Assembly: GCA_004297845.1 (NCBI GenBank)
Contig: SCSP01000289.1
Location: 1 to 39,853, forward strand
DNA length: 39,853 bases
Origin: Bacteroidota bacterium
GTDB lineage: Bacteria; Bacteroidota; Bacteroidia; Palsa-948
Reading direction: 5' to 3'
In this document: positions 13,259-37,325 of the stretch, one piece after another
Layout: every line of letters begins with the position of its first letter
Numbering within the stretch: position 1 is the first letter of the stretch
Made by a program: the position numbers and the translations under genes
Notes under the pieces: model-generated
Seen by the model: only the letters and a program-made list of their open reading frames with translations
The model's database searches: none
Told to the model about the DNA's origin: nothing

Positions 13259-14113
13259 CTAAAACCCATACTCCTTATACTCCTTCGTAAACTCCTCCTC
13301 CGAAATTTTTGGGTTCAATTGCAGTCCATGGTACTCGTAGGATTCAAAAAGGCCTTTCTCGTCATACACTTTTATTACGAGGGGAATGAATGTTTCTTTG
13401 TCAATGTAGAGCACCATCTTGTTTCCGTAAACATTAGGCGCTTTTATTTTCTGGTTTGCTTTTATATCGTGAAAATTCTTCACCTTGCCGGAATTTATTT
13501 CCAACAGCATGTAATCGCTCACTTTTAATTTGTGCGCGATAGATACCATTGTTTCGCCTTTCAGCACCGTGTAGTCCACGTACGCAAAATCCGGATATTC
13601 TGCGGTAATAAAGTAACATTCGCGCGAATTCCAGGTAAGAGTGCCTGTGCATTTAAAATAGGTATCAAAATTAATTCCCAGGATGTTAAGGGAATTTTTA
13701 ATGATGTCGCCAAAATATTCAAAACCCATCTGGTGAATGGTGTGGTGCTGTTTTTCCCGCATCAGGGATCCCATAGGGTCCAAATTCAGATTCATGTATG
13801 GAAACCCCTGCGGGTTGACTAAGCAATTCCCGTTATTTTTTCCCTCTACCCAGAGCAGTTCAGGACCCTTGAGGTAGATGTATATTTTCCGGGGCGCTCG
13901 GCTCAGTTTTACCTGGGATTCCGTGAAAAGCAATTTTCCGTTAATGCGCTCGTTGCATTTAAGATGAAACTTTAGGGTTTGTATATTTTCTATCGCAGTG
14001 ATCGTATTTTGCAGAATTTCTTTGCAAGAAGGCGGAGAAAGAGAATAGGCAGCAGGCAACAGACAACAAGCAACGAGCAGCATCCCTAAAGCTATTTTTT
14101 CCACGAACATCAT
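13259..14113 (-). CDS. Exported DUF1571 protein with internal LysM domain
   Basis: The 284-residue protein starts with a signal peptide (MMFVEKIALGMLLVACCLLP) whose core is written by a 7-base-period array. The mature part begins near residue 26 with a helical stretch. A LolA/LppX-like beta sheet segment characteristic of DUF1571 follows: KGPELLWVEGKNNGNCLVNP, then NLDPMGSLMREKQHHTIHQMG. Residues about 178-225 form a LysM domain (DYTVLKGETMVSIAHKLKVS, then ANQKIKAPN), inserted before the last DUF1571 strands (MVLYIDKETFIPLVIKVYDE). It is probably periplasmic, with LysM holding it to peptidoglycan. The DUF1571 match is from memory of the family. A -7 box lies exactly four bases before the first ATG. 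Confidence 0.75.
   Translation of the reverse strand: MMFVEKIALGMLLVACCLLPAAYSLSPPSCKEILQNTITAIENIQTLKFHLKCNERINGKLLFTESQVKLSRAPRKIYIYLKGPELLWVEGKNNGNCLVNPQGFPYMNLNLDPMGSLMREKQHHTIHQMGFEYFGDIIKNSLNILGINFDTYFKCTGTLTWNSRECYFITAEYPDFAYVDYTVLKGETMVSIAHKLKVSDYMLLEINSGKVKNFHDIKANQKIKAPNVYGNKMVLYIDKETFIPLVIKVYDEKGLFESYEYHGLQLNPKISEEEFTKEYKEYGF
14046..14080 (-). repeat. Heptad array encoding a signal-peptide core (DUF1571 gene)
   Basis: Five in-phase 7-mers read on the plus strand as TAGGCAG, CAGGCAA, CAGACAA, CAAGCAA, CGAGCAG. On the coding strand they are the YTGNYTG form and give LLVACCLLPAAYS. Units CAGACAA and CAGGCAG recur in the array at 33944. Confidence 0.8.
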
Positions 14114-16969: not shown

Positions 16970-18382
16970 ATGAAAAAGCTGCTCTCTACTTCTGCCTTCT
17001 TACTTTTTACTTTATACTTTGCCTTTTCCCAAGTGGATCTCGGACTTCCTTTTGTTACCGGCATGGGAGGTGCAGCCAATGGCGTAGTGAAGGACTGGGA
17101 GTGTATCGGAATTAATCCTGCCAACCTGGGGTGGAAAAATAATTTCAAGTTTTCCCTGAGCACGATGATCGTGGGGATCAATGCACAGTCAGGCGCGCTT
17201 GACTATAAGCAATTGCAAAATGCCATACTTCACCCCGGTGATACTTTTTCCAACGATGAAAAAAAATTATACGCTTCTATTTTTTCCAATGCAGAAGGGC
17301 TGAACCTCAATGCTAATTTAACCTATCTGGCGCTCTCTTTCAAAGTTCCCAAAGTGGGAGGGTTTGCCATGAACCTGAGCGACCGGACCTACGGACACAT
17401 AAAACTAAATAAGAACGCTGCTGAGATCATGTTTTTGGGCATGGACGCTCCGATTTTCAAGGACACGATGGCCTTTTTGCAGAATATCTCCAAGATATTT
17501 GATGATTCGGAAGTGGGCTTTACGCATTACCGCGAGTTGAATGTGGCTTACGGAGCCAAGCTTTTTGGCATTGGAGGAACTCCCGATTCGAGTGATGTTT
17601 CTTTTTATGGAGGGGTAGGATTTAAATACCTCTGGGGCATGGGCAACTACGAAATGGTTGCGGATAACAATGTGCTTACCGGGCACTCCGCTTTTTCATC
17701 CAAGTATGGAATACAATATGGAAAAATAAAAAACTTTACTCCCGAAACAACCTCCGGACTTTTTTCTTCTGTGGGGAACGGTACTGCCCTTGACCTGGGA
17801 TTGGGAGTGGGTATCGGAAAAGTGAAGATCACTGTATCAGCGTTGGATATGGGGAAGATCACTTGGGATAAGAATGTACTGATAGCAAGTGATACACTTT
17901 TGCCCGATACATCTCAGTTTAACTTTGCAGGTATTAACTCATGGAACCTGGCGGAACAGGCCAGCCAGATGTTTAACGACAGTGGAATTATAGAATTCAA
18001 ACCGGGACCATCGTATGAAACTAAACTTCTCTCAAAATTCAGGATTGGAGCGGGCTGGCAGATATCCAGAAGAATGGCGATAGGGTCCGATCTGGTGCTG
18101 CCTATGAGCAGCAATCCTGCCAATCTTCAGAACGCTTATTTCGCAATAGGAACTGAAATTGAGCTGGCTACCAATTTAAAATTTGCCTTTGGTTTCGCAG
18201 GTAATTCCACGTATAAATTCTGCGTTCCGTTTGGCATAACCCTGGGCCGTTTTTTCAAGATATGTGAGTTGCGTCTGGCAACCAGCGATATTCTGACCTA
18301 TATCGCACCCGGAGAGAATCCTACTATTTCATTATCATTTTCTTTGTTTCGCTTTAACTTTGATGGCAAGAAAAAGCAATGA
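16970..18382 (+). CDS. DUF5723 outer-membrane beta-barrel protein
   Basis: This 470-residue protein resembles the DUF5723/PorV-like outer-membrane family. A signal peptide (MKKLLSTSAFLLFTLYFAFS) precedes VDLGLPFVTGMGGAANGV and the family segment ECIGINPANLGW. Alternating hydrophobic/polar strands with many Gly follow (VGGFAMNLSDRTYGHI, VSFYGGVGFKYLWGMGNYE, LGLGVGIGKVKITVSALDMG), ending in LSFSLFRFNF. The role is unknown; related barrels act in T9SS export and lipid transport. Nearly the whole signal peptide is encoded by seven in-phase 7-mers. The stop overlaps the SDR start (ATGA). A -7 box lies 25 bases upstream of the ATG. Confidence 0.82.
   Translation: MKKLLSTSAFLLFTLYFAFSQVDLGLPFVTGMGGAANGVVKDWECIGINPANLGWKNNFKFSLSTMIVGINAQSGALDYKQLQNAILHPGDTFSNDEKKLYASIFSNAEGLNLNANLTYLALSFKVPKVGGFAMNLSDRTYGHIKLNKNAAEIMFLGMDAPIFKDTMAFLQNISKIFDDSEVGFTHYRELNVAYGAKLFGIGGTPDSSDVSFYGGVGFKYLWGMGNYEMVADNNVLTGHSAFSSKYGIQYGKIKNFTPETTSGLFSSVGNGTALDLGLGVGIGKVKITVSALDMGKITWDKNVLIASDTLLPDTSQFNFAGINSWNLAEQASQMFNDSGIIEFKPGPSYETKLLSKFRIGAGWQISRRMAIGSDLVLPMSSNPANLQNAYFAIGTEIELATNLKFAFGFAGNSTYKFCVPFGITLGRFFKICELRLATSDILTYIAPGENPTISLSFSLFRFNFDGKKKQ
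16982..17030 (+). repeat. Seven-unit heptad array encoding the DUF5723 signal peptide
   Basis: The units CTCTCTA, CTTCTGC, CTTCTTA, CTTTTTA, CTTTATA, CTTTGCC and TTTTCCC follow in unbroken 7-base phase for 49 bases. They start four codons after the ATG and stop at the predicted cleavage site. This is the longest array in the window. Confidence 0.85.
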
Positions 18383-19200: not shown

Positions 19201-19247
19201 GTATTTCGTATTTCGTATTTCGTAAGTTCGTGTCAATTTGTACTTCG
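19201..19247 (+). repeat. Heptad array between convergent genes
   Basis: GTATTTC is repeated perfectly three times from 19201. More degenerate units GTAAGTT, CGTGTCA, ATTTGTA and CTTCGAT follow in the same phase. The array fills most of the 64 bases between the SDR stop and the barrel-gene stop. Confidence 0.8.
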
Positions 19248-21003: not shown

Positions 21004-24000
21004 CTACTCCTGTTTATACAATGTCGAATCCTTCGGATTATCCGGTGTGAATTGTATATTCAGGTTTTCAGATTCCTTTTGTAATTTTTTCTCTTGTTCC
21101 GCTTTTTCCATCTCTGCAATGCGGTTGAGTTTTTCCCTGGCAACAGCAACAAGTTCTGTATTGCTTGATTTGTCAATATAAGACTGTAACGCGTATTTTG
21201 CATTGAAATTGTCGTTCAGCGCCACATAATTATCAGACAGCAGCAAATATCCTTTTCCCATCCAATATTCGTACCCGGGATCCTGGTTGAGAAGATCAAA
21301 AGCAGTTTTCTGTGATTCCTTGTATTGTCCTTTCAGGAATTGAACGTAGGCCATATTGTAACGGGCTTCCGCGCTTTTCTCACTGGTGGTAAGTTGTGTG
21401 ATCGCAGAGAATTCGCTTGTCGCCAGATCAAAGTCCTGTTTTTCGAGAGCAGATTTTCCGATGATAAGATGCGCTTCTGATTTTACTTCGCTGGATATCT
21501 TATCGAGTGTCAGAACCTTTTGTGCAGATTCTACCGCTAGGTCGTAATTGCCAAGCATCCACTGGCAACGCATTTCTCCTGTTCTGCCCTCGTTTATGTT
21601 GGCTGGATATTCAGCTACTTCTGCAAGGCGCTTATACAAAGTCAAGGCATTTCGGAAATTTTTATTCTTTAAATTGATCCATGAACCTTTTAATAAAGAG
21701 GATTCTGTGAACTGACTGTAAGGTTTGTCAACCACATATTGGTAGCCACCGAGCGCCAGATCATAATTCTTATTGTTGTAATCACATTCCGCTTTGTAGT
21801 ACATCGCATTCACAAGGAAGATTCCGTCCAGGTACTTCTGAATGTATTTCATGAAATAGCGGTTTGCATTTTCGCAATCGCCTTTATCATAATAATCAAA
21901 AGCTACATCGTAGTTGCTTGAGTCAAGCGATGCGACCGAAACAGAGGCGTAAGGAATAGTTTTAATTATTTCTTCAAAGGGACCCATGTCTCCTTTCGAT
22001 CGGCAGATGTCTCTCATTGCATTGATCGCTTCAAAGGCTTCATTCGTCTTGGGGTAAGCGGCAAGGACTTTATTGATTGTTACAAGTGCCTCATCATATT
22101 CTTTCTTTTTGGCTTGGATTACTCCGATCTGAAGCAAAGACCGCGAGGTGTAGGAACATTCGGGATGTTCCGCCACTACCTTTTTGTAATAGCTGATGGC
22201 ATGGTCATCGTTGCCCAGCTGCAGGTACATATTTGCAAGCTCATATTTTGATGCCGCTTCGTATTTTGACCTTCCGGTGTACCCGGATAGCAACTCCGAA
22301 AGTGTTTTGATCTTCTCCTCCGCTTTTCTGGTCAGACCCTGTGCAAGCGCTTTCTGGTAAAGTGCGTAATCGGCATCCTGCTTGCCTGTTTTCAACGCTT
22401 CATCATAATAATCAACTGCATTGCTGAAATCTTTTGTCATGAAGAAGTTGTCGCCAATCCGGAGGTAAGCATCGTTTAATTTTTCTGTCGGCTCAGCAGA
22501 TTTTAGCCCGACATATTTTCGGAACCATACATTCGATTCAGTGTAATTTGTTTTTTTGAAGAAAGCGTATCCCAGGTTGTAGTTAGCCGCAAAGAACTCA
22601 TTGTTGTTGATAGCGCCCGGATAAATCAAAAATGATTTATACCCGGCAATGGCAGAATCAAGGCCTGCTGACAGGTTTTCTTTTTCTGACATACGGTAAT
22701 TTGCTTCTCCCTTCCAGTAATACGCAAGCGAAACATAATTTCTGTTTGAAGGATACAGAAGCGACCTGTCTAAGTGCGTGATGGCATCTTTCAGCTGGTT
22801 GTCATTGTACAGCTGCAGCCCGCGCATAAAGGCAATTTTCTGGTAAGCGGTTTTCATTTCCTCGTTCAGCGATTTCATGCTTTCGATGGATGCCATAGCC
22901 TGCTTATAATTTTTGGTGGAGAGGTAAACATTCACTAAGTATTTGTAACATTCATCTATCCTCGGAGAGCCGGGGTATTTGCTGATATAATCATTAAGCG
23001 TGGTAACCGCTTCGTTAAAGGGACTGAAGGAAAGTTCGTAGCAGAGTTTTGCGTAATTGAACAGGGCATCTTCTGTAATTACTTTGTCAAAATCAAGTTT
23101 ATAGGCCATTTCGAAAGAATTTCTGGCAAGCATCTTTGAGGAAGTTCCTCCGGAGTAGGGAGATGGTTTTACATAACAGTCCGCCAGGTGGTAGTGTGCG
23201 TTCTGTGCCAGGGAATCTTTTCCGTCCGTGGCATTTTGGAAACAGTACAAAGCCGAGGTGCTGTTATCTGTTTTATAATACGCATACCCAAGTTGATACC
23301 ATTCGCTTCTGTTGAGGGTTGGAGTCAGACTTTTGTATTTTTCCAGGAATGGGAGCGATTCTTTGTAACGCCCGGTGCGGTAGTACGATTCACCGATGAT
23401 CTTCGTGAGCTCTGTAACACGCTTGGAGGTAGAATCAAGCAGGGGAGCAGCCATCGCGATTGCGCTGTCGTATTTCTGCTGGAGATAATATATTTGTGCG
23501 ATGCAGTAAGGCACGATAGGTCCGAAGTTCTCATTCCTTTTCAGCTTGTTGAAGTGCTGCAATGCGGTCTGGTAATTTTTTTCTAAATAGGAAATGTGTC
23601 CGAAATAGTAGGTGGAAGGAGCAGCGTATTTATTGTCTATGTCCTTGATCTCAAAAAAATCTTTTTTCGCTTTTTCAATACTGTCTTCTTCAAAATAACT
23701 GTATCCCCGTTTGAAATAGAATTCAGAAAGCTCCTCGTTGCTCAGGTCATACAGGTCCACTTTCGCAAACCAGTCCAGCGCCTTGTTGTATTGCTTCTTG
23801 CGGTAATTGTATTTCCCGAGATGAAAAGAGGCAGTTTGTACACGCGGACTTTCCGGATGATTGGCCATGAACTCTTTCAGCAGCAACTCGGCATCCTTAT
23901 TGAACAGCTCCAGCGCGCAAAGTGCGGAATAATACGCTGCGTCAATTCGGATAAGATCATTGGGCTCGTTCTTGTAATGAGCAGCAATTTTTGAAAATTG

Positions 24001-24162
24001 TTTTTGGGCAGAACCATATTTTTGTTTCTGGAAAAGCTCCAGTGCGGATTTGAAATCTGCATCCGGATGAGTATAGATGGCGGTCTTCTGAGAAAATGCC
24101 GCGAGACAGGTAATCAGGAAAAGGCCAACGAGAAAAACGTACAATGCAGATCGTTTATCCAT
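21004..24162 (-). CDS. Large periplasmic TPR-repeat protein
   Basis: The 1052-residue protein starts with MDKRSALYVFLVGLFLITCL and AAFSQ, a signal peptide. The rest is mostly tandem TPR-like helix pairs, for example KYGSAQKQFSKIAAHYKNEP, YNKALDWFAKVDLYD, YQTALQHFNKLKRN, DDHAISYYKKVVAEHPECS and YDEALVTINKVLAAYP. The C-terminus is a Glu/Lys-rich helix (REKLNRIAEMEKAEQEKKLQ). It resembles YbgF/BamD-like scaffolds that hold envelope complexes in the periplasm. It is the first gene of a pair with the barrel protein, and the pairing suggests that it serves that barrel. The upstream region holds TATACCTTATA-like words but no clean -7 box. Confidence 0.88.
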   Translation of the reverse strand: MDKRSALYVFLVGLFLITCLAAFSQKTAIYTHPDADFKSALELFQKQKYGSAQKQFSKIAAHYKNEPNDLIRIDAAYYSALCALELFNKDAELLLKEFMANHPESPRVQTASFHLGKYNYRKKQYNKALDWFAKVDLYDLSNEELSEFYFKRGYSYFEEDSIEKAKKDFFEIKDIDNKYAAPSTYYFGHISYLEKNYQTALQHFNKLKRNENFGPIVPYCIAQIYYLQQKYDSAIAMAAPLLDSTSKRVTELTKIIGESYYRTGRYKESLPFLEKYKSLTPTLNRSEWYQLGYAYYKTDNSTSALYCFQNATDGKDSLAQNAHYHLADCYVKPSPYSGGTSSKMLARNSFEMAYKLDFDKVITEDALFNYAKLCYELSFSPFNEAVTTLNDYISKYPGSPRIDECYKYLVNVYLSTKNYKQAMASIESMKSLNEEMKTAYQKIAFMRGLQLYNDNQLKDAITHLDRSLLYPSNRNYVSLAYYWKGEANYRMSEKENLSAGLDSAIAGYKSFLIYPGAINNNEFFAANYNLGYAFFKKTNYTESNVWFRKYVGLKSAEPTEKLNDAYLRIGDNFFMTKDFSNAVDYYDEALKTGKQDADYALYQKALAQGLTRKAEEKIKTLSELLSGYTGRSKYEAASKYELANMYLQLGNDDHAISYYKKVVAEHPECSYTSRSLLQIGVIQAKKKEYDEALVTINKVLAAYPKTNEAFEAINAMRDICRSKGDMGPFEEIIKTIPYASVSVASLDSSNYDVAFDYYDKGDCENANRYFMKYIQKYLDGIFLVNAMYYKAECDYNNKNYDLALGGYQYVVDKPYSQFTESSLLKGSWINLKNKNFRNALTLYKRLAEVAEYPANINEGRTGEMRCQWMLGNYDLAVESAQKVLTLDKISSEVKSEAHLIIGKSALEKQDFDLATSEFSAITQLTTSEKSAEARYNMAYVQFLKGQYKESQKTAFDLLNQDPGYEYWMGKGYLLLSDNYVALNDNFNAKYALQSYIDKSSNTELVAVAREKLNRIAEMEKAEQEKKLQKESENLNIQFTPDNPKDSTLYKQE

Positions 24163-30710: not shown

Positions 30711-33700
30711 TTAGAAATCCAACGAAAAGGACCAGTAGAAAACACGGGGCTGGATATTTCCATCTTCCCATCCATGGCTCCAATCTAAGCGCATGAAGTA
30801 TCCGAGCAGGCGGCTGCGGATTCCCCATCCATAGCCGCCAACGATGGGTTCCCGCCTTGTTTCAATTACAACGGTAACCGGGCTCGGGGGACCGCCAACA
30901 ACTTGGGTGTTGAGCGAGTTATTGTCGTCATAGGGAGATTTGCCTGTCCAGGCGGTACCGATATCGCCAAACCCAACCACCTGGAAGTTGTTCAGGAAGT
31001 CAGACTTAAGAGGTTTGTTCATCAGGTAGCGGAAAAGAGGAAGACGAAGCTCGGTATTGTAAAGCGCGAAACTGTTTCCGTTGCGAATGTTCTGATGAAA
31101 ACCGCGCATGGGGGTTGCAAGGGTTTGGTATGCGTAGTTCTGCTTCAGGTCAATGGGCGTACTGAAATTGAACTGAGGGCTGAACCAGTTATCCACGCCT
31201 CCCATGTAGTAGATCAGTTTTTTATTTCCGAAAGAAGTGCTTGCCGAAAGCCGGTTCGCCCAGATGAAATCACGGTGTATCTTGGTGTAATTGCGGATGT
31301 CAAGCCCCAGAATGGTAATGTTTGTTTCCGTTTTGTTCAGCTGTTTCAGGTACTCCCCAAAAATTTTCAGGCGAGTACCATAATACAGATTCAATCCACG
31401 CTTGCGCGTATTGTCAAAAACAAATTCCAGTTTCCCGCCTCCCCAGTATTCAAATTCGTTCGGTTTGGAAAGGGAGGGAATGTCAAAGGCATAAAACGAA
31501 GTCCGGTCCTGCCTTGCGTCCACAGTTCCCCGCACTCCGGCCGTTTCGGTGAAGGGCCACTTTATAATATATTTAGCCTGATGACTCTGCACCTTAAGTG
31601 ATCCGTAATCAAGCCCCTGTCGGTGCAGGATAATTTGCTTATCCAGGCGCTTCAGGCGATTTTCATAGCTCATGTAATATTCGTTGCTGTTCAGATCGGA
31701 AGAGATACGCACACCGCCTGTGATTTTGTAATCGTCAAACACATCGCTGAGTCCAAGCTTGAAAAATCCGGTGAACCCCGGACTCAGGAAGATAGGGCCG
31801 GGGCCGGAAAATTTTTGATAGGAGGCGTTTAAAAATGAATTATCGATCTGTGTAACTACGTAATCTGTAGAGAAGAACACAAAATAATTTCTTTGTTGAG
31901 GAAACTGAAATGCGGCAGCAGGTGCAGCGGCAGTGGCAGTATCGGGAGCAGTATTTAAAGTTTCAACTTTAGGGAGATTTGCAGTTTGTTTCTTGGGTTC
32001 GTTGTCAAACACATAGTTATTAATATCAATAGCTGTGCTGTCTTTCTTTTCCGGTATTATCTCTTCGGAAACAAATACCTGCACCGTTTGAATGTCCTTG
32101 ATGGCGCTTTCTTTTTTCTTGTCATTCTCTGTGGTTGCCTGTTTTAAAGAAAGTCCCCTGTATGCGGTGTTTATCAGCGGAACATTTAAAGCGGTATTCC
32201 CCGGCGGCAGGTCATTGACAAACAGCTTGAATTTTTTATTTGTAAAAATAACTTCAGTAATTTTCTTTGATTTCAGGTTGATATCCTGTTCCAGAATGTT
32301 GCGGGAATAATTGGTGATGGGATAGCTGCGCGTGTAGTAGCGGTAATGTTCGGCAGTGTCCACGTATGCGATAGCGCTGTCGAGTACGCCCAGATAGCGG
32401 TTGCGGATGCCGTTTTCATCGCTCAGAAAACAAAGATGTTCGCTGTCGAATTCAAAGGGATAGGATTCGCTCACCGAAGGGGTGTTGGTTACTTTACGCA
32501 GGACGGAGGATTTGTTTTTGTAATTGTAAATGAAAAGGTCTTTATGCTCCATGGGCTGCTGGTGCGCTTTCAGGTCAACAGGATATGCCGGGAAGAACCG
32601 TATCGTATCACTTGGACGGTTGGATGCAAAAATTATTTTAGATGAATTGGCGATGAACTTTGGAGTGAGATCATCGTAAATATCTTTGGTGATCTGTTCG
32701 GAGTTTCCGGCTCCCGGGGTATAAACAAAAATATCGCTTTGTCCGTTCTGCACGGCAGACATCACGAATTGCCTTCCATCATCAGAATAGGAGAAGTCGG
32801 CAATTTTTTCAAAGTTGAATATCTTGATGGTTTCTGATTTTTTGACGGATAGGGTATAATAGGTGAGCAGCAATTCGCCTTTTCTCTCTGTAATGATTGA
32901 AATTCTTTCTCCGGCCGGATGCCAGTTTACGAGGGGGTAGGAATAATCCACAGGCCTGTCGAGCTTCTGCTCCCGCTTTAGAATCCGTTTAGCTTTTCGC
33001 TTTTTAAAATCATAGAGCCATACTTTATACTGCCCAAGCTGATTGGTAGTGTACACTGCGTAATTTCCGTCAGGACTGGTTTTGAAACGCTGATACACAC
33101 GGCTGATCTTCGGTTTTTTAAGCAAGGAGGCAGGCGGAACTTTTTTAGTTGTGTCTGCCTCGGTATAACGATTAGTATAATATTGCATCCACTCGCTGGT
33201 CATGTTTTTCATGGAGACTCCGAGGACAAACAGAAATGCGCTTTCTATGTTGCGTGTAACTTTGGTCATGTACAGGATGTTAGAGATCACGGATTTTCCG
33301 TACGTTTCTGCGATGTAATTCCAGATGGAATGTCCGGCATATAAAGCGTCAACACCTTCCATGCCATTGAATTTTTTGTATTTGCCGGCCAGGATGCCGT
33401 CTTTCACGCGGGAGTCAATATCCGTATCCCATCCATTTGCAATGTAAGAGACGAGCCCTTTTATATACCAGTTAGGAAGGGTAAGCAGCGTGGAGTTTTT
33501 CACCACATCCCGTATGTTGCCGCCATACATCATCTGGTTGATAAGCACTTCGGCAACCACTTCTTTTATCTGCCTGTCATACATTGCATGATCACCGTCA
33601 AAATACAGGAATACTTTAGATCCCACAATTTTTGTAACACCACCCACATTGTAAGGTTCTTCGTATTCAAGCCCAATGTTGCTTTGCCTGAAATCACTTT

Positions 33701-34031
33701 GTTTGTTGTAAACGATAAACTCTATCTTTTCGTCTAAGTTGTAATCCAGCATCCTCTCGATCTTCTCGATGCTTTTCTTCGCTTCCTGGGAGGTATATTG
33801 AGCCAACTCTTTTCCGCCCATGTAGAAGTATACATTGTATTTTTCAAACTTGTACCATTGCCATAACCGGGGTTCATCAAACTGAACGCGGTTTTTCCCG
33901 AATTCCATCTGCGAACCGCTGTAGAACTGAGCGTGAATGCCGGTACACAACAGGCAGCAAACAACAGACAATAATATAATTTGTCTGGAAGGATTTTTCG
34001 AGAGAAAATTGAAATTTGAGATTGTTTGCAT
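30711..34031 (-). CDS. TolB-like exported protein: degenerate peptidase-MA-like domain, PD40 propeller, beta barrel
   Basis: The 1106-residue protein has a signal peptide ending LCTGIHAQ, partly encoded by a heptad array. Residues about 45-300 resemble the gluzincin-like peptidase-MA module, but the place for HExxH reads KEVVAEVLINQMMYGG, so it lacks the zinc motif. Residues about 300-580 form a WD40-like PD40 propeller with repeats such as SPDGNYAVYTTNQLGQYKVW, FSYSDDGRQFVMSAVQNGQS and FIANSSKIIFASNRPSD. After a low-complexity linker (PDTATAAAPAAAFQFP), residues about 725-1106 are strand-rich and end in RVFYWSFSLDF with a terminal Phe, typical of an Omp85/BamA-like barrel. It is likely an outer-membrane protein. 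Role unknown. Confidence 0.82.
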   Translation of the reverse strand: MQTISNFNFLSKNPSRQIILLSVVCCLLCTGIHAQFYSGSQMEFGKNRVQFDEPRLWQWYKFEKYNVYFYMGGKELAQYTSQEAKKSIEKIERMLDYNLDEKIEFIVYNKQSDFRQSNIGLEYEEPYNVGGVTKIVGSKVFLYFDGDHAMYDRQIKEVVAEVLINQMMYGGNIRDVVKNSTLLTLPNWYIKGLVSYIANGWDTDIDSRVKDGILAGKYKKFNGMEGVDALYAGHSIWNYIAETYGKSVISNILYMTKVTRNIESAFLFVLGVSMKNMTSEWMQYYTNRYTEADTTKKVPPASLLKKPKISRVYQRFKTSPDGNYAVYTTNQLGQYKVWLYDFKKRKAKRILKREQKLDRPVDYSYPLVNWHPAGERISIITERKGELLLTYYTLSVKKSETIKIFNFEKIADFSYSDDGRQFVMSAVQNGQSDIFVYTPGAGNSEQITKDIYDDLTPKFIANSSKIIFASNRPSDTIRFFPAYPVDLKAHQQPMEHKDLFIYNYKNKSSVLRKVTNTPSVSESYPFEFDSEHLCFLSDENGIRNRYLGVLDSAIAYVDTAEHYRYYTRSYPITNYSRNILEQDINLKSKKITEVIFTNKKFKLFVNDLPPGNTALNVPLINTAYRGLSLKQATTENDKKKESAIKDIQTVQVFVSEEIIPEKKDSTAIDINNYVFDNEPKKQTANLPKVETLNTAPDTATAAAPAAAFQFPQQRNYFVFFSTDYVVTQIDNSFLNASYQKFSGPGPIFLSPGFTGFFKLGLSDVFDDYKITGGVRISSDLNSNEYYMSYENRLKRLDKQIILHRQGLDYGSLKVQSHQAKYIIKWPFTETAGVRGTVDARQDRTSFYAFDIPSLSKPNEFEYWGGGKLEFVFDNTRKRGLNLYYGTRLKIFGEYLKQLNKTETNITILGLDIRNYTKIHRDFIWANRLSASTSFGNKKLIYYMGGVDNWFSPQFNFSTPIDLKQNYAYQTLATPMRGFHQNIRNGNSFALYNTELRLPLFRYLMNKPLKSDFLNNFQVVGFGDIGTAWTGKSPYDDNNSLNTQVVGGPPSPVTVVIETRREPIVGGYGWGIRSRLLGYFMRLDWSHGWEDGNIQPRVFYWSFSLDF
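33944..33971 (-). repeat. Heptad array encoding a signal-peptide core (TolB-like gene)
   Basis: Plus-strand units TACACAA, CAGGCAG, CAAACAA, CAGACAA in phase; the coding strand gives LLSVVCCLLCTG. It shares units with the array at 14046. Confidence 0.75.
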
Positions 34032-34175: not shown

Positions 34176-37100
34176 ATGAAAAAAATTGTTTTTGTCTCCC
34201 CGGTTTCACTTCGTTCATCCGGATTTCGCCCGTTATTATTGATTTTATTGTGCTCAAGCTGTTTACTGTTTGCTGTTTGCTGTTTTTCCCAGGAAACCTT
34301 TCAAGCCAACGGAGCACCGGATAAGCGGCATATTTTTTACGCGTTCACGAATGTAAAGCTGTTTATAGATTACCAAACGGTTGTGGAGAAGGCAACTTTG
34401 CTTATTAAAGACGGAATAATTGTTGACGCAGGCGATAAAGTGGTGATACCCAAAGGAACTGTTGTTTATGACCTGAAAGGCAAAAATATTTATCCTTCCC
34501 TGGTTGATATTTACACCACCTATGGAATGCCGGAAGTGAAGAAAGCAGAGATTTCCCGAGGACCGCAGATGGAAAGCAACACGAAAGGCGCGTACGGATG
34601 GAATCAGGCTATAAAACCGGAAACAGAAGCAGTAAAACTTTTTTCAGGAGACAAAAAATGGGCCGAAGAAATGCGAAAACTTGGTTTTGGCGCTGTTATG
34701 TCTTTCAAAAAAGATGGTATAGCCCGTGGTTCAGCCGTCTTTGTATCGCTTGCTGATAAAAATGAGAATCAGACTGTATTAAAGGACAAGGCGGCTGCCA
34801 TGTATTCATTTGACAAGGGAACCAGCACCCAGAATTATCCGAGTTCGTTGATGGGCAGCATAGCGTTATTAAGACAAACATACTTTGATGCACAATGGTA
34901 CAAACAAGCTGCAAGAGATAAGGAGTTTAATATATCGTTGGACGCATGGAGCCAGCTACAATCCTTACCTCAGATATTTGAAGCAGGCGACAAGCTTTCC
35001 GCCCTGCGTGCCGATAAAGTAGGAGATGAATTTAAAATGCAGTACATAATTAAAGGAAATGGTGATGAATATCAGCGTATGGAAGAGATCAAGGCGACCA
35101 ACGCGCGATTTATTCTTCCTCTTGCTTTTCCTGCGCCTTTTGATGTAGAGGATCCTTACGATGCCAATATGATCTCTCTTTCGGAAATGAAGAATTGGGA
35201 AATGGCTCCGATGAACCCTTCTGCATTTGAGAAAAAATTTATCCCCTTTGCACTTACCACCGGTGGGCTGAAGGAGAAAAAAGATTTCTGGAAAAATATC
35301 CGCAAAGCGATAGAATATGGAATGTCGGAAAAGCAAACGCTTCGTGCTCTTACGTCAACACCTGCAGAAATGATCAGTATGCAGGACAAAATTGGCGCCT
35401 TGAAAAAAGGAATGATCGCAAATTTTATCATTACTTCCGGAAATTTGTTTGATGAAAAAACAAGCATTTTTGAAAATTGGATTCAGGGAGATCAATATGT
35501 TTTAAAGGATATGAATGTGGTGGATCTTCGGGGAAAATACAACCTGACACTGGATTCGAAAACCCTTTCCCTGAAGATATCCGGAGAAGCAGATAAACCA
35601 AAAACGGATATCCATATAAATGATTCTGCAAAAGTTTCCGCAGAACTTTCTCTTTCCGGGAAATTGGTTTCATTGATTTTCACGTTGAAAGGCGATAGTG
35701 GTGTTACACGTTTGAGCGGAAGTGTTGGTCCAGGCCCTGAAGGGGGAAATACATGGATGATGAAAGGAAAGGGACAAATGTCAGGCGGACGTTGGATTTC
35801 CTGGACCGCCCTATGGCAGTCGGCACTTGAACTTGAGTTGGAAAAAAAGGATTCTACTAAAAAGGATACACTACTCCCCTCCTCCCGTGGAGAAGGGAAG
35901 GGGATGAGGCGATACCCAACTCTGGACGATGTGATCTACCCTTTCTCTGCCTACGGTCAGAAAAAACAGGATTCTACTTTTCTGGAAAGATACTGGAACC
36001 GATGGGGTGCCATCATTATCAAAAATGTGACTGTTTGGACGAATGAACCGGAAGGCATTCTGAAAAATAAGGACGTGATGATTACCGAAGGAAAAATTGT
36101 TCGTATTGGAGATAATCTCTCAACACCCGGTACGGTAAAGGCAAAAATAATTGACGGCACGGGCAAGCATCTCACCGCAGGCATCATTGATGAACATTCG
36201 CACATCGCGATCAGCGCAGGAGTAAATGAAGGCTCGCAGGCATCCAGTGCGGAAGTCAGCATTGGAGATGTGATAGACTGCGAAGACATTGACATTTACC
36301 GCAACCTGGCCGGAGGGGTGGTGGCGAGCCAGTTGTTGCATGGTTCAGCCAATCCGATAGGCGGGCAATCCGGAATTGTGAAACTGCGATGGGGAAAGTC
36401 TCCGGAAGAAATGAAAATAAAAGGTGCGGATAGTTTTATAAAATTTGCGCTGGGAGAAAATGTGAAACAAAGCAACTGGGGAGAAAATAATACCGTTCGT
36501 TTCCCTCAAACAAGAATGGGAGTGGAGCAGGTGTATTATGATATGTTCACCCGCGCGCGGGAATATGATCTGAAATGGCAGGCGTACGCTGCGGCCACTC
36601 ATAAATTCAAAACATTCATTGCTCCTCCGCGCATAGATTTGGAAATGGATGCGTTGGTGCAGATATTGGACAAAAAACGTTTCATCACTTGTCATTCCTA
36701 TGTGCAAAGCGAAATAAATATGCTCATGCACGCGGGCGATTCCATGGGATTTAAAGTGAACACCTTTACACATATACTTGAGGGCTACAAAATAGCCGAC
36801 AAAATGAAAGTACATGGCGCGGGAGCGTCCTCTTTCTCCGATTGGTGGGCGTACAAAATGGAGGTGAAAGAAGCTATTCCGTATAACGGAGCCATCCTGC
36901 ATAAAATGGGTTTGGTAACCGCGTTTAATTCTGACGATGCTGAAATGGCAAGAAGATTGAACCAGGAAGCGGCAAAAGCAGTGAAGTACGGAGGACTTTC
37001 GGAAGAAGATGCCTGGAAATTTGTTACGATCAACCCCGCGAAACTTTTGCACCTGGATAATACGATGGGCAGCATCCGGGTGGGAAAGAGTGCGGACCTG

Positions 37101-37325
37101 GTTTTATGGACAGACCATCCACTTTCTATTTACGCAAAAGCCGATAAAACAATTATTGACGGACAAATTTATTTTGATGCCGAAACCGACAAAAAACTCC
37201 GCGAAGAAATTCAAAGAGAGCGGGACCGTCTCATCAATTTGATGATACAGGCGAAGAAAGGCGGTACGCCCACCCAAAAGCCGGAGAAAAAGGAAAAGAA
37301 AAAATATTCATGTCATGGAGAATGA
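34176..37325 (+). CDS. Exported double amidohydrolase with an inactive N-terminal half
   Basis: The 1049-residue protein has a signal peptide ending CCFSQ. Two imidazolonepropionase-like amidohydrolase units follow. In the first (about 45-460) the usual D-x-H-x-H is replaced by LVDIYTTYGMPE (about 109-120), so both metal His are missing, although the end segment TSTPAEMISMQDKIGALKKG is kept. The second (about 620-1030) has GIIDEHSHIAI (His674 and His676), ITCHSYVQSEI, THILEGYK and AFNSDDAEMARR, plus TINPAKLLHLDNTMGSIRVG, and looks active. Between them lie a beta-rich linker and SSRGEGKGMRRYPT, a translated palindromic element. It is likely periplasmic. The substrate is unknown; relatives include peptidase-like and cyclic-amide hydrolases. 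Confidence 0.87.
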   Translation: MKKIVFVSPVSLRSSGFRPLLLILLCSSCLLFAVCCFSQETFQANGAPDKRHIFYAFTNVKLFIDYQTVVEKATLLIKDGIIVDAGDKVVIPKGTVVYDLKGKNIYPSLVDIYTTYGMPEVKKAEISRGPQMESNTKGAYGWNQAIKPETEAVKLFSGDKKWAEEMRKLGFGAVMSFKKDGIARGSAVFVSLADKNENQTVLKDKAAAMYSFDKGTSTQNYPSSLMGSIALLRQTYFDAQWYKQAARDKEFNISLDAWSQLQSLPQIFEAGDKLSALRADKVGDEFKMQYIIKGNGDEYQRMEEIKATNARFILPLAFPAPFDVEDPYDANMISLSEMKNWEMAPMNPSAFEKKFIPFALTTGGLKEKKDFWKNIRKAIEYGMSEKQTLRALTSTPAEMISMQDKIGALKKGMIANFIITSGNLFDEKTSIFENWIQGDQYVLKDMNVVDLRGKYNLTLDSKTLSLKISGEADKPKTDIHINDSAKVSAELSLSGKLVSLIFTLKGDSGVTRLSGSVGPGPEGGNTWMMKGKGQMSGGRWISWTALWQSALELELEKKDSTKKDTLLPSSRGEGKGMRRYPTLDDVIYPFSAYGQKKQDSTFLERYWNRWGAIIIKNVTVWTNEPEGILKNKDVMITEGKIVRIGDNLSTPGTVKAKIIDGTGKHLTAGIIDEHSHIAISAGVNEGSQASSAEVSIGDVIDCEDIDIYRNLAGGVVASQLLHGSANPIGGQSGIVKLRWGKSPEEMKIKGADSFIKFALGENVKQSNWGENNTVRFPQTRMGVEQVYYDMFTRAREYDLKWQAYAAATHKFKTFIAPPRIDLEMDALVQILDKKRFITCHSYVQSEINMLMHAGDSMGFKVNTFTHILEGYKIADKMKVHGAGASSFSDWWAYKMEVKEAIPYNGAILHKMGLVTAFNSDDAEMARRLNQEAAKAVKYGGLSEEDAWKFVTINPAKLLHLDNTMGSIRVGKSADLVLWTDHPLSIYAKADKTIIDGQIYFDAETDKKLREEIQRERDRLINLMIQAKKGGTPTQKPEKKEKKKYSCHGE
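34259..34286 (+). repeat. Heptad array encoding a signal-peptide core (double amidohydrolase)
   Basis: Units CTGTTTA, CTGTTTG, CTGTTTG, CTGTTTT: four near-perfect 7-mers encoding CLLFAVCCF. They are the reverse complement of the CARNCAR units in the other signal-peptide arrays. Confidence 0.85.
35872..35909 (+). repeat. In-gene palindromic element (type 1) in the double amidohydrolase
   Basis: CTCCCCTCCTCCC, GTGG loop region, AGAAGGG, then the tail AAGGGGATGAGGCG. It is read as LPSSRGEGKGMRR in the inter-domain linker. Confidence 0.7.

Follow-up and report, generated by a model that had tools for sequence, protein, structure and literature searches.

Degenerate tandem arrays with a period of seven nucleotides, called heptad arrays here, are associated genome-wide with predicted signal peptides (SPs) in a genus of the class Bacteroidia, and the comparison of orthologs supports, at the level of sequence, a rewriting of SP sequences by such arrays. 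SPs evolve fast, and the SP sequences of orthologs look unrelated to each other. To our knowledge, natural sources of new SP sequence have rarely been identified.

The window is the whole stretch of DNA that was analysed, 39,853 nucleotides in length, and corresponds to contig C410, one of the 412 contigs of an assembly of 3.47 Mb. The gene under study and its array are as follows.

16970..18382, + strand: gene of a DUF5723-like predicted exported protein, 470 aa
16982..17030, + strand: degenerate array of heptads for LSTSAFLLFTLYFAFS, which is the entire h-region as far as the predicted cleavage site; 21/28 matches at lag 7
16996..17020, + strand: best-kept core of the array, CTTTTTA x 3.6; Tandem Repeats Finder (TRF) 88%

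The array comprises 49 nt, reads CTCTCTA, CTTCTGC, CTTCTTA, CTTTTTA, CTTTATA, CTTTGCC and TTTTCCC, begins directly behind ATG-AAA-AAG-CTG and stops at the predicted cleavage point, ...AFS|Q. A first-pass annotation of this DNA had described seven heptads running from four codons past the ATG to the predicted cleavage site, and this description is correct, with the qualification that the inner units are well kept but those towards the ends degenerate, TRF accepting only the 3.6 inner copies. The best window of 28 bases has 21 matches at lag 7, 8-14 at lags 4-6 and 8-13, and 18 at lag 14. Neither codon order nor the encoded peptide is sufficient to explain the array, given p=5e-5 against 20,000 shuffles of codon order and p=7.5e-4 against synonymous resampling with the peptide fixed and ordinary codon choice. 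By a sequence rule only, the N-terminus MKKLLSTSAFLLFTLYFAFS|Q has a basic n-region, an uncharged h-region and a small residue before the cleavage point, and this predicted Sec SP form is repeated in all the congeners. The name DUF5723, given to the protein in the first-pass annotation, is indirect: the window protein itself has no Pfam match at E<=1, but a Hymenobacter relative (L117) which is 31% identical to it matches PF18990 (DUF5723) at 6e-18. The structure model of the protein is poor (mean pLDDT 44.5).

Four further stretches of the window are concerned.

14046..14081, - strand: SP of the DUF1571/LysM gene 13259-14113(-), with a heptad array that codes LLVACCLLPAAYS; 22/28; Pfam DUF1571
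34258..34285, + strand: GCTGTTT x 4 where the amidohydrolase gene 34176-37325(+) codes its N-terminal hydrophobic segment; TRF 90%; 19/28
33946..33971, - strand: SP of gene 30711-34031(-), with a stretch that is only weakly heptad-like; 15/28 at lag 7, and 14 at both lag 5 and lag 10
19201..19224, + strand: intergenic heptad array, GTATTTC x 3.4; TRF 100%

Three other SP cores in the window, at 14046, 33944 and 34259, had been claimed to consist of heptads as well; this applies to the first (22/28) and the last (19/28, four copies by TRF), while the stretch at 33944 is weak (15/28). The intergenic array at 19201-19224 is part of the same genome-wide phenomenon. In addition, the window contains a protein carrying a type B sorting domain of the T9SS (TIGR04131; 8594-12352(-)) and a TPR protein with a weak PorW/SprE match below the cut-off (21004-24162(-)), which together suggest a type IX secretion system.

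For the genome-wide test, 1.66 Mb of DNA was sampled from three genomes of one genus, namely 628 kb of this genome (G000), 738 kb of G006 and 295 kb of G004, or about 18%, 21% and 8% of these genomes, respectively. Genes were called by a dicodon model, SPs were flagged by a simple and crude n/h/c rule that is blind to repeats, and an array was defined by at least 20/28 matches at lag 7. Some contigs of G000 were picked via a listing of a loose heptad pattern; such a choice can inflate array counts, but it cannot make arrays prefer one class of positions. At the stricter level of at least 21/28, there are 30 lag-7 arrays in G000 and 33 in G006 against 0-9 at other lags, except lag 14 (12 each), that is, the excess of the 7-nt period over other periods which is expected of heptanucleotide simple sequence repeats.

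The density of arrays in the three-genome sample is 1.04/kb in SPs (23 arrays), 0.19/kb in the first 75 nt of non-SP genes (12 arrays, about 8 of which look, by eye, like SPs or n-regions missed by the rule), 0.054/kb in internal transmembrane (TM) segments (2 arrays), 0.057/kb in other coding DNA (78 arrays) and 0.32/kb in intergenic DNA (58 arrays). Coding DNA is thus depleted of arrays relative to intergenic DNA, as is usual for heptanucleotide repeats, with SPs as the exception, their density being 18 times that of coding DNA (p=4e-20), 19 times that of TM segments (p=2e-8) and 3.3 times that of intergenic DNA (p=1e-5). These arrays are not all independent events, because G000, G006 and G004 are congeneric and share ancestry. 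When the window is left out, or when G006 and G004 are taken alone, the ratios stay at 17-18, 11-18 and 3.0, respectively. Moreover, among 521 genes that code an N-terminal hydrophobic core, 35 have an array in their first 135 nt, compared with 10 of 662 genes without such a core, and 4 of those 10 are evident SPs. The best windows of the SP arrays average 22.7/28, most of these arrays being degenerate. A local reciprocal-best-hit comparison yielded only 42 SP pairs, a number too small for conclusions.

About 6% of the SPs (23/391) carry an array at 20/28 or better, whereas 0.09 are expected from codon shuffling and 0.8 from synonymous resampling; at 17/28 or better, 44/391 do so, with 2.7 and 11.8 expected, respectively. 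In DNA matched for a pyrimidine/purine skew of at least 65%, arrays occur at 2.87/kb in SPs, 0.66/kb in intergenic DNA and 0.10/kb in TM segments. Because these nulls are low and skew-matched TM and intergenic DNA is sparser in arrays, composition and hydrophobicity alone do not make arrays. Consequently, the association of arrays with SP positions throughout the genome, which the first-pass annotation had put forward as a check of its idea, is strong.

The orientation of the SP arrays also follows the anatomy of the SP. In the sense strand, 21 of the SP arrays are pyrimidine-rich and 2 purine-rich, compared with 38 and 40, respectively, in other coding DNA (Fisher p=2e-4); divided by zone, pyrimidine- and purine-sense arrays number 34 and 0 in h-regions and 1 and 7 in n-regions. 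Pyrimidine heptads read as hydrophobic cycles such as FCLLPSA, YCLLSTV, SYFLLLT and AYCLLPT, and purine heptads as basic or polar ones such as KGKRQKA and KSKVKSQ, so selection on the peptide predicts this pattern of orientation. The rule is partly built in, because the very definition of a hydrophobic core implies many T at second codon positions; what the orientation tells is that both zones of the SP keep arrays, each in the sense that fits it. It had also been argued that a pyrimidine-rich heptad, encoding similar residues in all frames, would make a ready hydrophobic segment. As to the frames the argument is right, as any heptad reads as an identical cycle of seven codons in every frame, but hydrophobicity is a filter and does not come automatically, because among all heptads 69% are stop-free and only 7.8% are hydrophobic without polar residues, and SP-capable units (stop-free and hydrophobic) make up 19% of the units in intergenic arrays, compared with 78% in SPs.

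Orthologs of the gene under study carry CTTTTTA/CTTCTTA-type arrays in G000, G002, G003 and G005, while the closest ortholog, that of G004 (73%), has a TTGTCTA-type array, that of G006 the remnant of an array (17/28) and that of G001 none. In G012, which belongs to another family, a relative has an SP and no array, and the SP of the Hymenobacter relative looks ordinary by eye. Similarly, the units of the amidohydrolase gene at 34176 are GCTGTTT here, CTGCCTT in G003 and CATTATC in G006 (25/28), with no array in G001 and G002, and the gene at L065:8424 has CTGTCTT here and a near-perfect CTGCCTA x 4 in G004 (26/28). In the peptidase gene L065:3669-6956, CTGCCTT-(CTTACTT)3 here corresponds to (CTGTCTT)3-CTTACTT of equal length in G004, a pattern as would be expected for replacement of units inside an array. 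In the L020 orthogroup, it is the n-region that is coded by purine-sense arrays, in G000, G006, G001 and G003. In five orthogroups together, the units differ at two or more of the seven bases in 21 of 30 orthologous pairs, compared with 213 of 253 non-orthologous SP pairs, so the place of the array persists while its unit turns over; these orthogroups do not measure the frequency of gain, because they were picked for an array in G000. When the SP DNA of orthologs with and without arrays is compared, as the first-pass annotation had suggested, the SP is retained at the same place ahead of a conserved mature protein, with other units or none. That annotation regarded repeats as a possible route by which secretion signals are created or replaced. 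Replacement is favoured by the orthologs with different units or none; as to creation, no case was seen, and array-free relatives also have an SP in all the orthogroups examined.

To see how widely arrays of this kind are distributed, 395 genomes of the class were searched for ATGAARAAN{3,30} with three pyrimidine heptads behind it, a pattern anchored at the start codon. It matched in 10/395 genomes, that is, in 6/7 of this genus and in 4 of one genus belonging to another family, and nowhere else among the 395; the reversed pattern gave 0 matches, and a purine-sense version gave none in the 14 genomes tested. The ten loci that could be read all encode predicted SPs. Without the anchor, 48 and 28 distinct arrays were counted by hand in these two genera, and 9 and 5 of them follow the anchor, where 0.6 would be expected in all. 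Samples of 20 kb taken class-wide gave only ten arrays, and heptad arrays with other units are also found in other families. The TTTTTAC-type pattern alone was rejected as a search probe, since its reversed control had more matches. Very long, near-perfect intergenic heptad arrays occur in G007, of another family (L163:12513-12630 and 17477-17639), with units of the GGGTTTC/GGGTTTT-, GTTTCGA- and CCAAAAC-type, two of the types in inverted order.

A mobile repeat element of the REP or MITE type has one conserved unit in many copies, whereas 110 distinct canonical units were found among 172 arrays here. Because the arrays have their period in common but not their unit, a process counting seven bases, for example polymerase slippage, is indicated rather than a mobile element. 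In addition, arrays capable of coding an h-region occur at 0.77/kb in SPs and at 0.030/kb per strand in intergenic DNA, and because of this gap of about 25-fold passive tolerance alone is insufficient, so that growth in situ or positive retention is needed. The mechanism proposed would start from a property particular to this lineage, the ready formation of degenerate tandem arrays whose period is 7 nt and whose unit can be almost anything, presumably by replication slippage in 7-nt steps. Selection would purge most of the arrays in coding DNA; SPs would escape, because all that is required of an SP is a basic n-region and a hydrophobic h-region free of charges, and SP-coding arrays would be retained if orientation and unit suit the zone. 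Arrays may grow in place from pyrimidine-rich SP DNA, or those which preserve the SP may be retained while intergenic ones decay, or both. With time, units would be swapped and the SP DNA thereby rewritten, the export signal and the mature protein being retained. It is probable that slippage makes the arrays and that SPs keep the fitting ones. The excess at lag 7, the association with SPs, the orientation rule and the turnover of units between orthologs are observed, while slippage, origin or retention in situ and the function of the encoded SPs are inferred from them.

Several other explanations have to be weighed against this one. Pyrimidine-rich, low-complexity SP DNA or gene calling might produce arrays as an artefact, since identity in SP DNA is raised at every lag, but SPs have only 0-2 strong arrays at the control lags, except lag 14, the double period, with 13, the codon and synonymous nulls lie far below the 23 arrays observed, TM segments of similar skew are without arrays, and orthologs place the SP identically before the conserved mature protein, so that an artefact is extremely improbable. 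Another possibility is one ancestral array per gene, altered by ordinary point mutation with no ongoing rewriting. The CTTTTTA/CTTCTTA-type arrays shared by G000, G002, G003 and G005, at 64-73% protein identity over the full search, accord with this, but the closest ortholog, in G004, has the TTGTCTA array, and other orthogroups include near-perfect arrays of different units (CTGCCTA in G004, CATTATC in G006) together with array-free members; descent from a single array is thus very unlikely.

Arrays might instead reach genes as copies or insertions of intergenic arrays, through a mobile or recombinational process, SPs being passive recipients. Intergenic arrays are indeed common (0.32/kb), and some lie just upstream of starts. 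If local copying took place, neighbouring arrays should share units, but among 26 near pairs only 1 shares its unit (at most one mismatch) in the same orientation and 3 in the inverted one, so local copying is unsupported; moreover, SP-capable units are far scarcer among intergenic arrays than in SPs, and neither a flanking element nor a target-site duplication was noted in an unsystematic look. Insertion is therefore regarded as unlikely. It is quite unlikely, too, that the arrays act as nucleic acid or as switches, that is, as phase-variable contingency loci at gene starts, or as pyrimidine heptads in mRNA to which, for instance, a cold-shock protein binds. The arrays come directly after start codons, a change by one unit of 7 nt shifts the frame, and, according to Lin and Kussell 2012 (as cited in PMC4692102), simple repeats are more frequent close to N-termini and have a link with phase variation; likewise, CspB binds heptamer repeats such as TTCTTTT with weak sequence preference (PMC4679880). 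Most arrays are, however, degenerate, which limits switching by slippage, 110 different units are ill-suited to one binding protein, and the tie of N-terminal arrays to a hydrophobic core (35/521 vs 10/662) would be needless for a general start-site switch.

Beyond slippage and retention of the fitting arrays, a sequence-independent 7-nt process might be a recurrent engine of SP rewriting across the lineage, supplying h-regions by pyrimidine and n-regions by purine arrays and sometimes creating new SPs, the secretome evolving partly by repeat turnover; this wider view is tentative and rather doubtful. A mutational process that leaves a visible period makes its share in SPs countable genome-wide, and offers a testable case of repeats turning into functional peptide segments. 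It also cautions against taking SP similarity in such genomes (CLLPTAYCLL-type) for homology, as it can reflect convergence of repeats.

Repeats were also observed in other parts of proteins. Outside the SP, 11/19 heptad arrays of exported genes lie within 82 residues of the C-terminus (for example L038:5793-5936, L052:9091-9212, L064:694-813 and L054:6808-6849), where they read as STINHQTSTID-like strands beside YNxxGEKI-type motifs and resemble type IX sorting domains; a C-terminal region like a sorting domain is a possible second permissive slot for arrays. In L153 (G006:C35), at the N-terminus of the L021 relative, a palindromic repeat (ATGCTGAGCGAAGTCGAAGCAT) codes the last residues of the SP, MLSEVEASLAQ, and thus a different family of repeats is also found inside an SP. 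Furthermore, the peptides TLSKGEGVSPPSGLPEAGNEDRAEG, LPSSRGEGKGMRRYP and LPNGEGRGG interrupt conserved proteins (L065:3669-6956(-), window 34176-37325 and L158) and resemble a further repeat scattered through coding DNA.

As for known systems, Kaiser et al. (1987, listed in PMC4585086) reportedly found that random sequences act as secretion signals and that many unrelated sequences can replace a signal sequence. The SP is a permissive slot there as here; that experiment used random DNA, whereas in the present case the sequence seems to come from a natural process that forms repeats. What is new is the association with SPs, the orientation rule and the turnover of units in orthologs; no literature linking heptad repeats with SPs was found in a search to which most subscription journals were closed. 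The excess of heptanucleotides, their scarcity in coding DNA and the enrichment of simple repeats near N-termini are already known, according to PMC4692102 and PMC4679880. As cited there, heptanucleotide repeats are over-represented in bacteria (Mrazek and co-workers 2007), polymerase slippage has been proposed as their origin, and examples include GGGAATC-type repeats in Xanthomonas and Nostoc and TAACTGA in Beggiatoaceae and a few Bacteroidetes. The present arrays share with the N-terminal simple repeats of Lin and Kussell (2012), as cited in PMC4692102, their tandem nature and their place at the start of the coding sequence; unlike those, as far as that citation describes them, they are tied to the hydrophobic core and its sense strand, are degenerate and stay at the same place across species while the unit turns over. 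With the known heptanucleotide repeats they have in common the 7-nt period, the many genomic copies, the greater frequency outside genes and a presumed origin by slippage. While those repeats, in the accounts cited, are of one unit type per genome and mostly intergenic, the units here are highly diverse and are densest in the codons of signal peptides.
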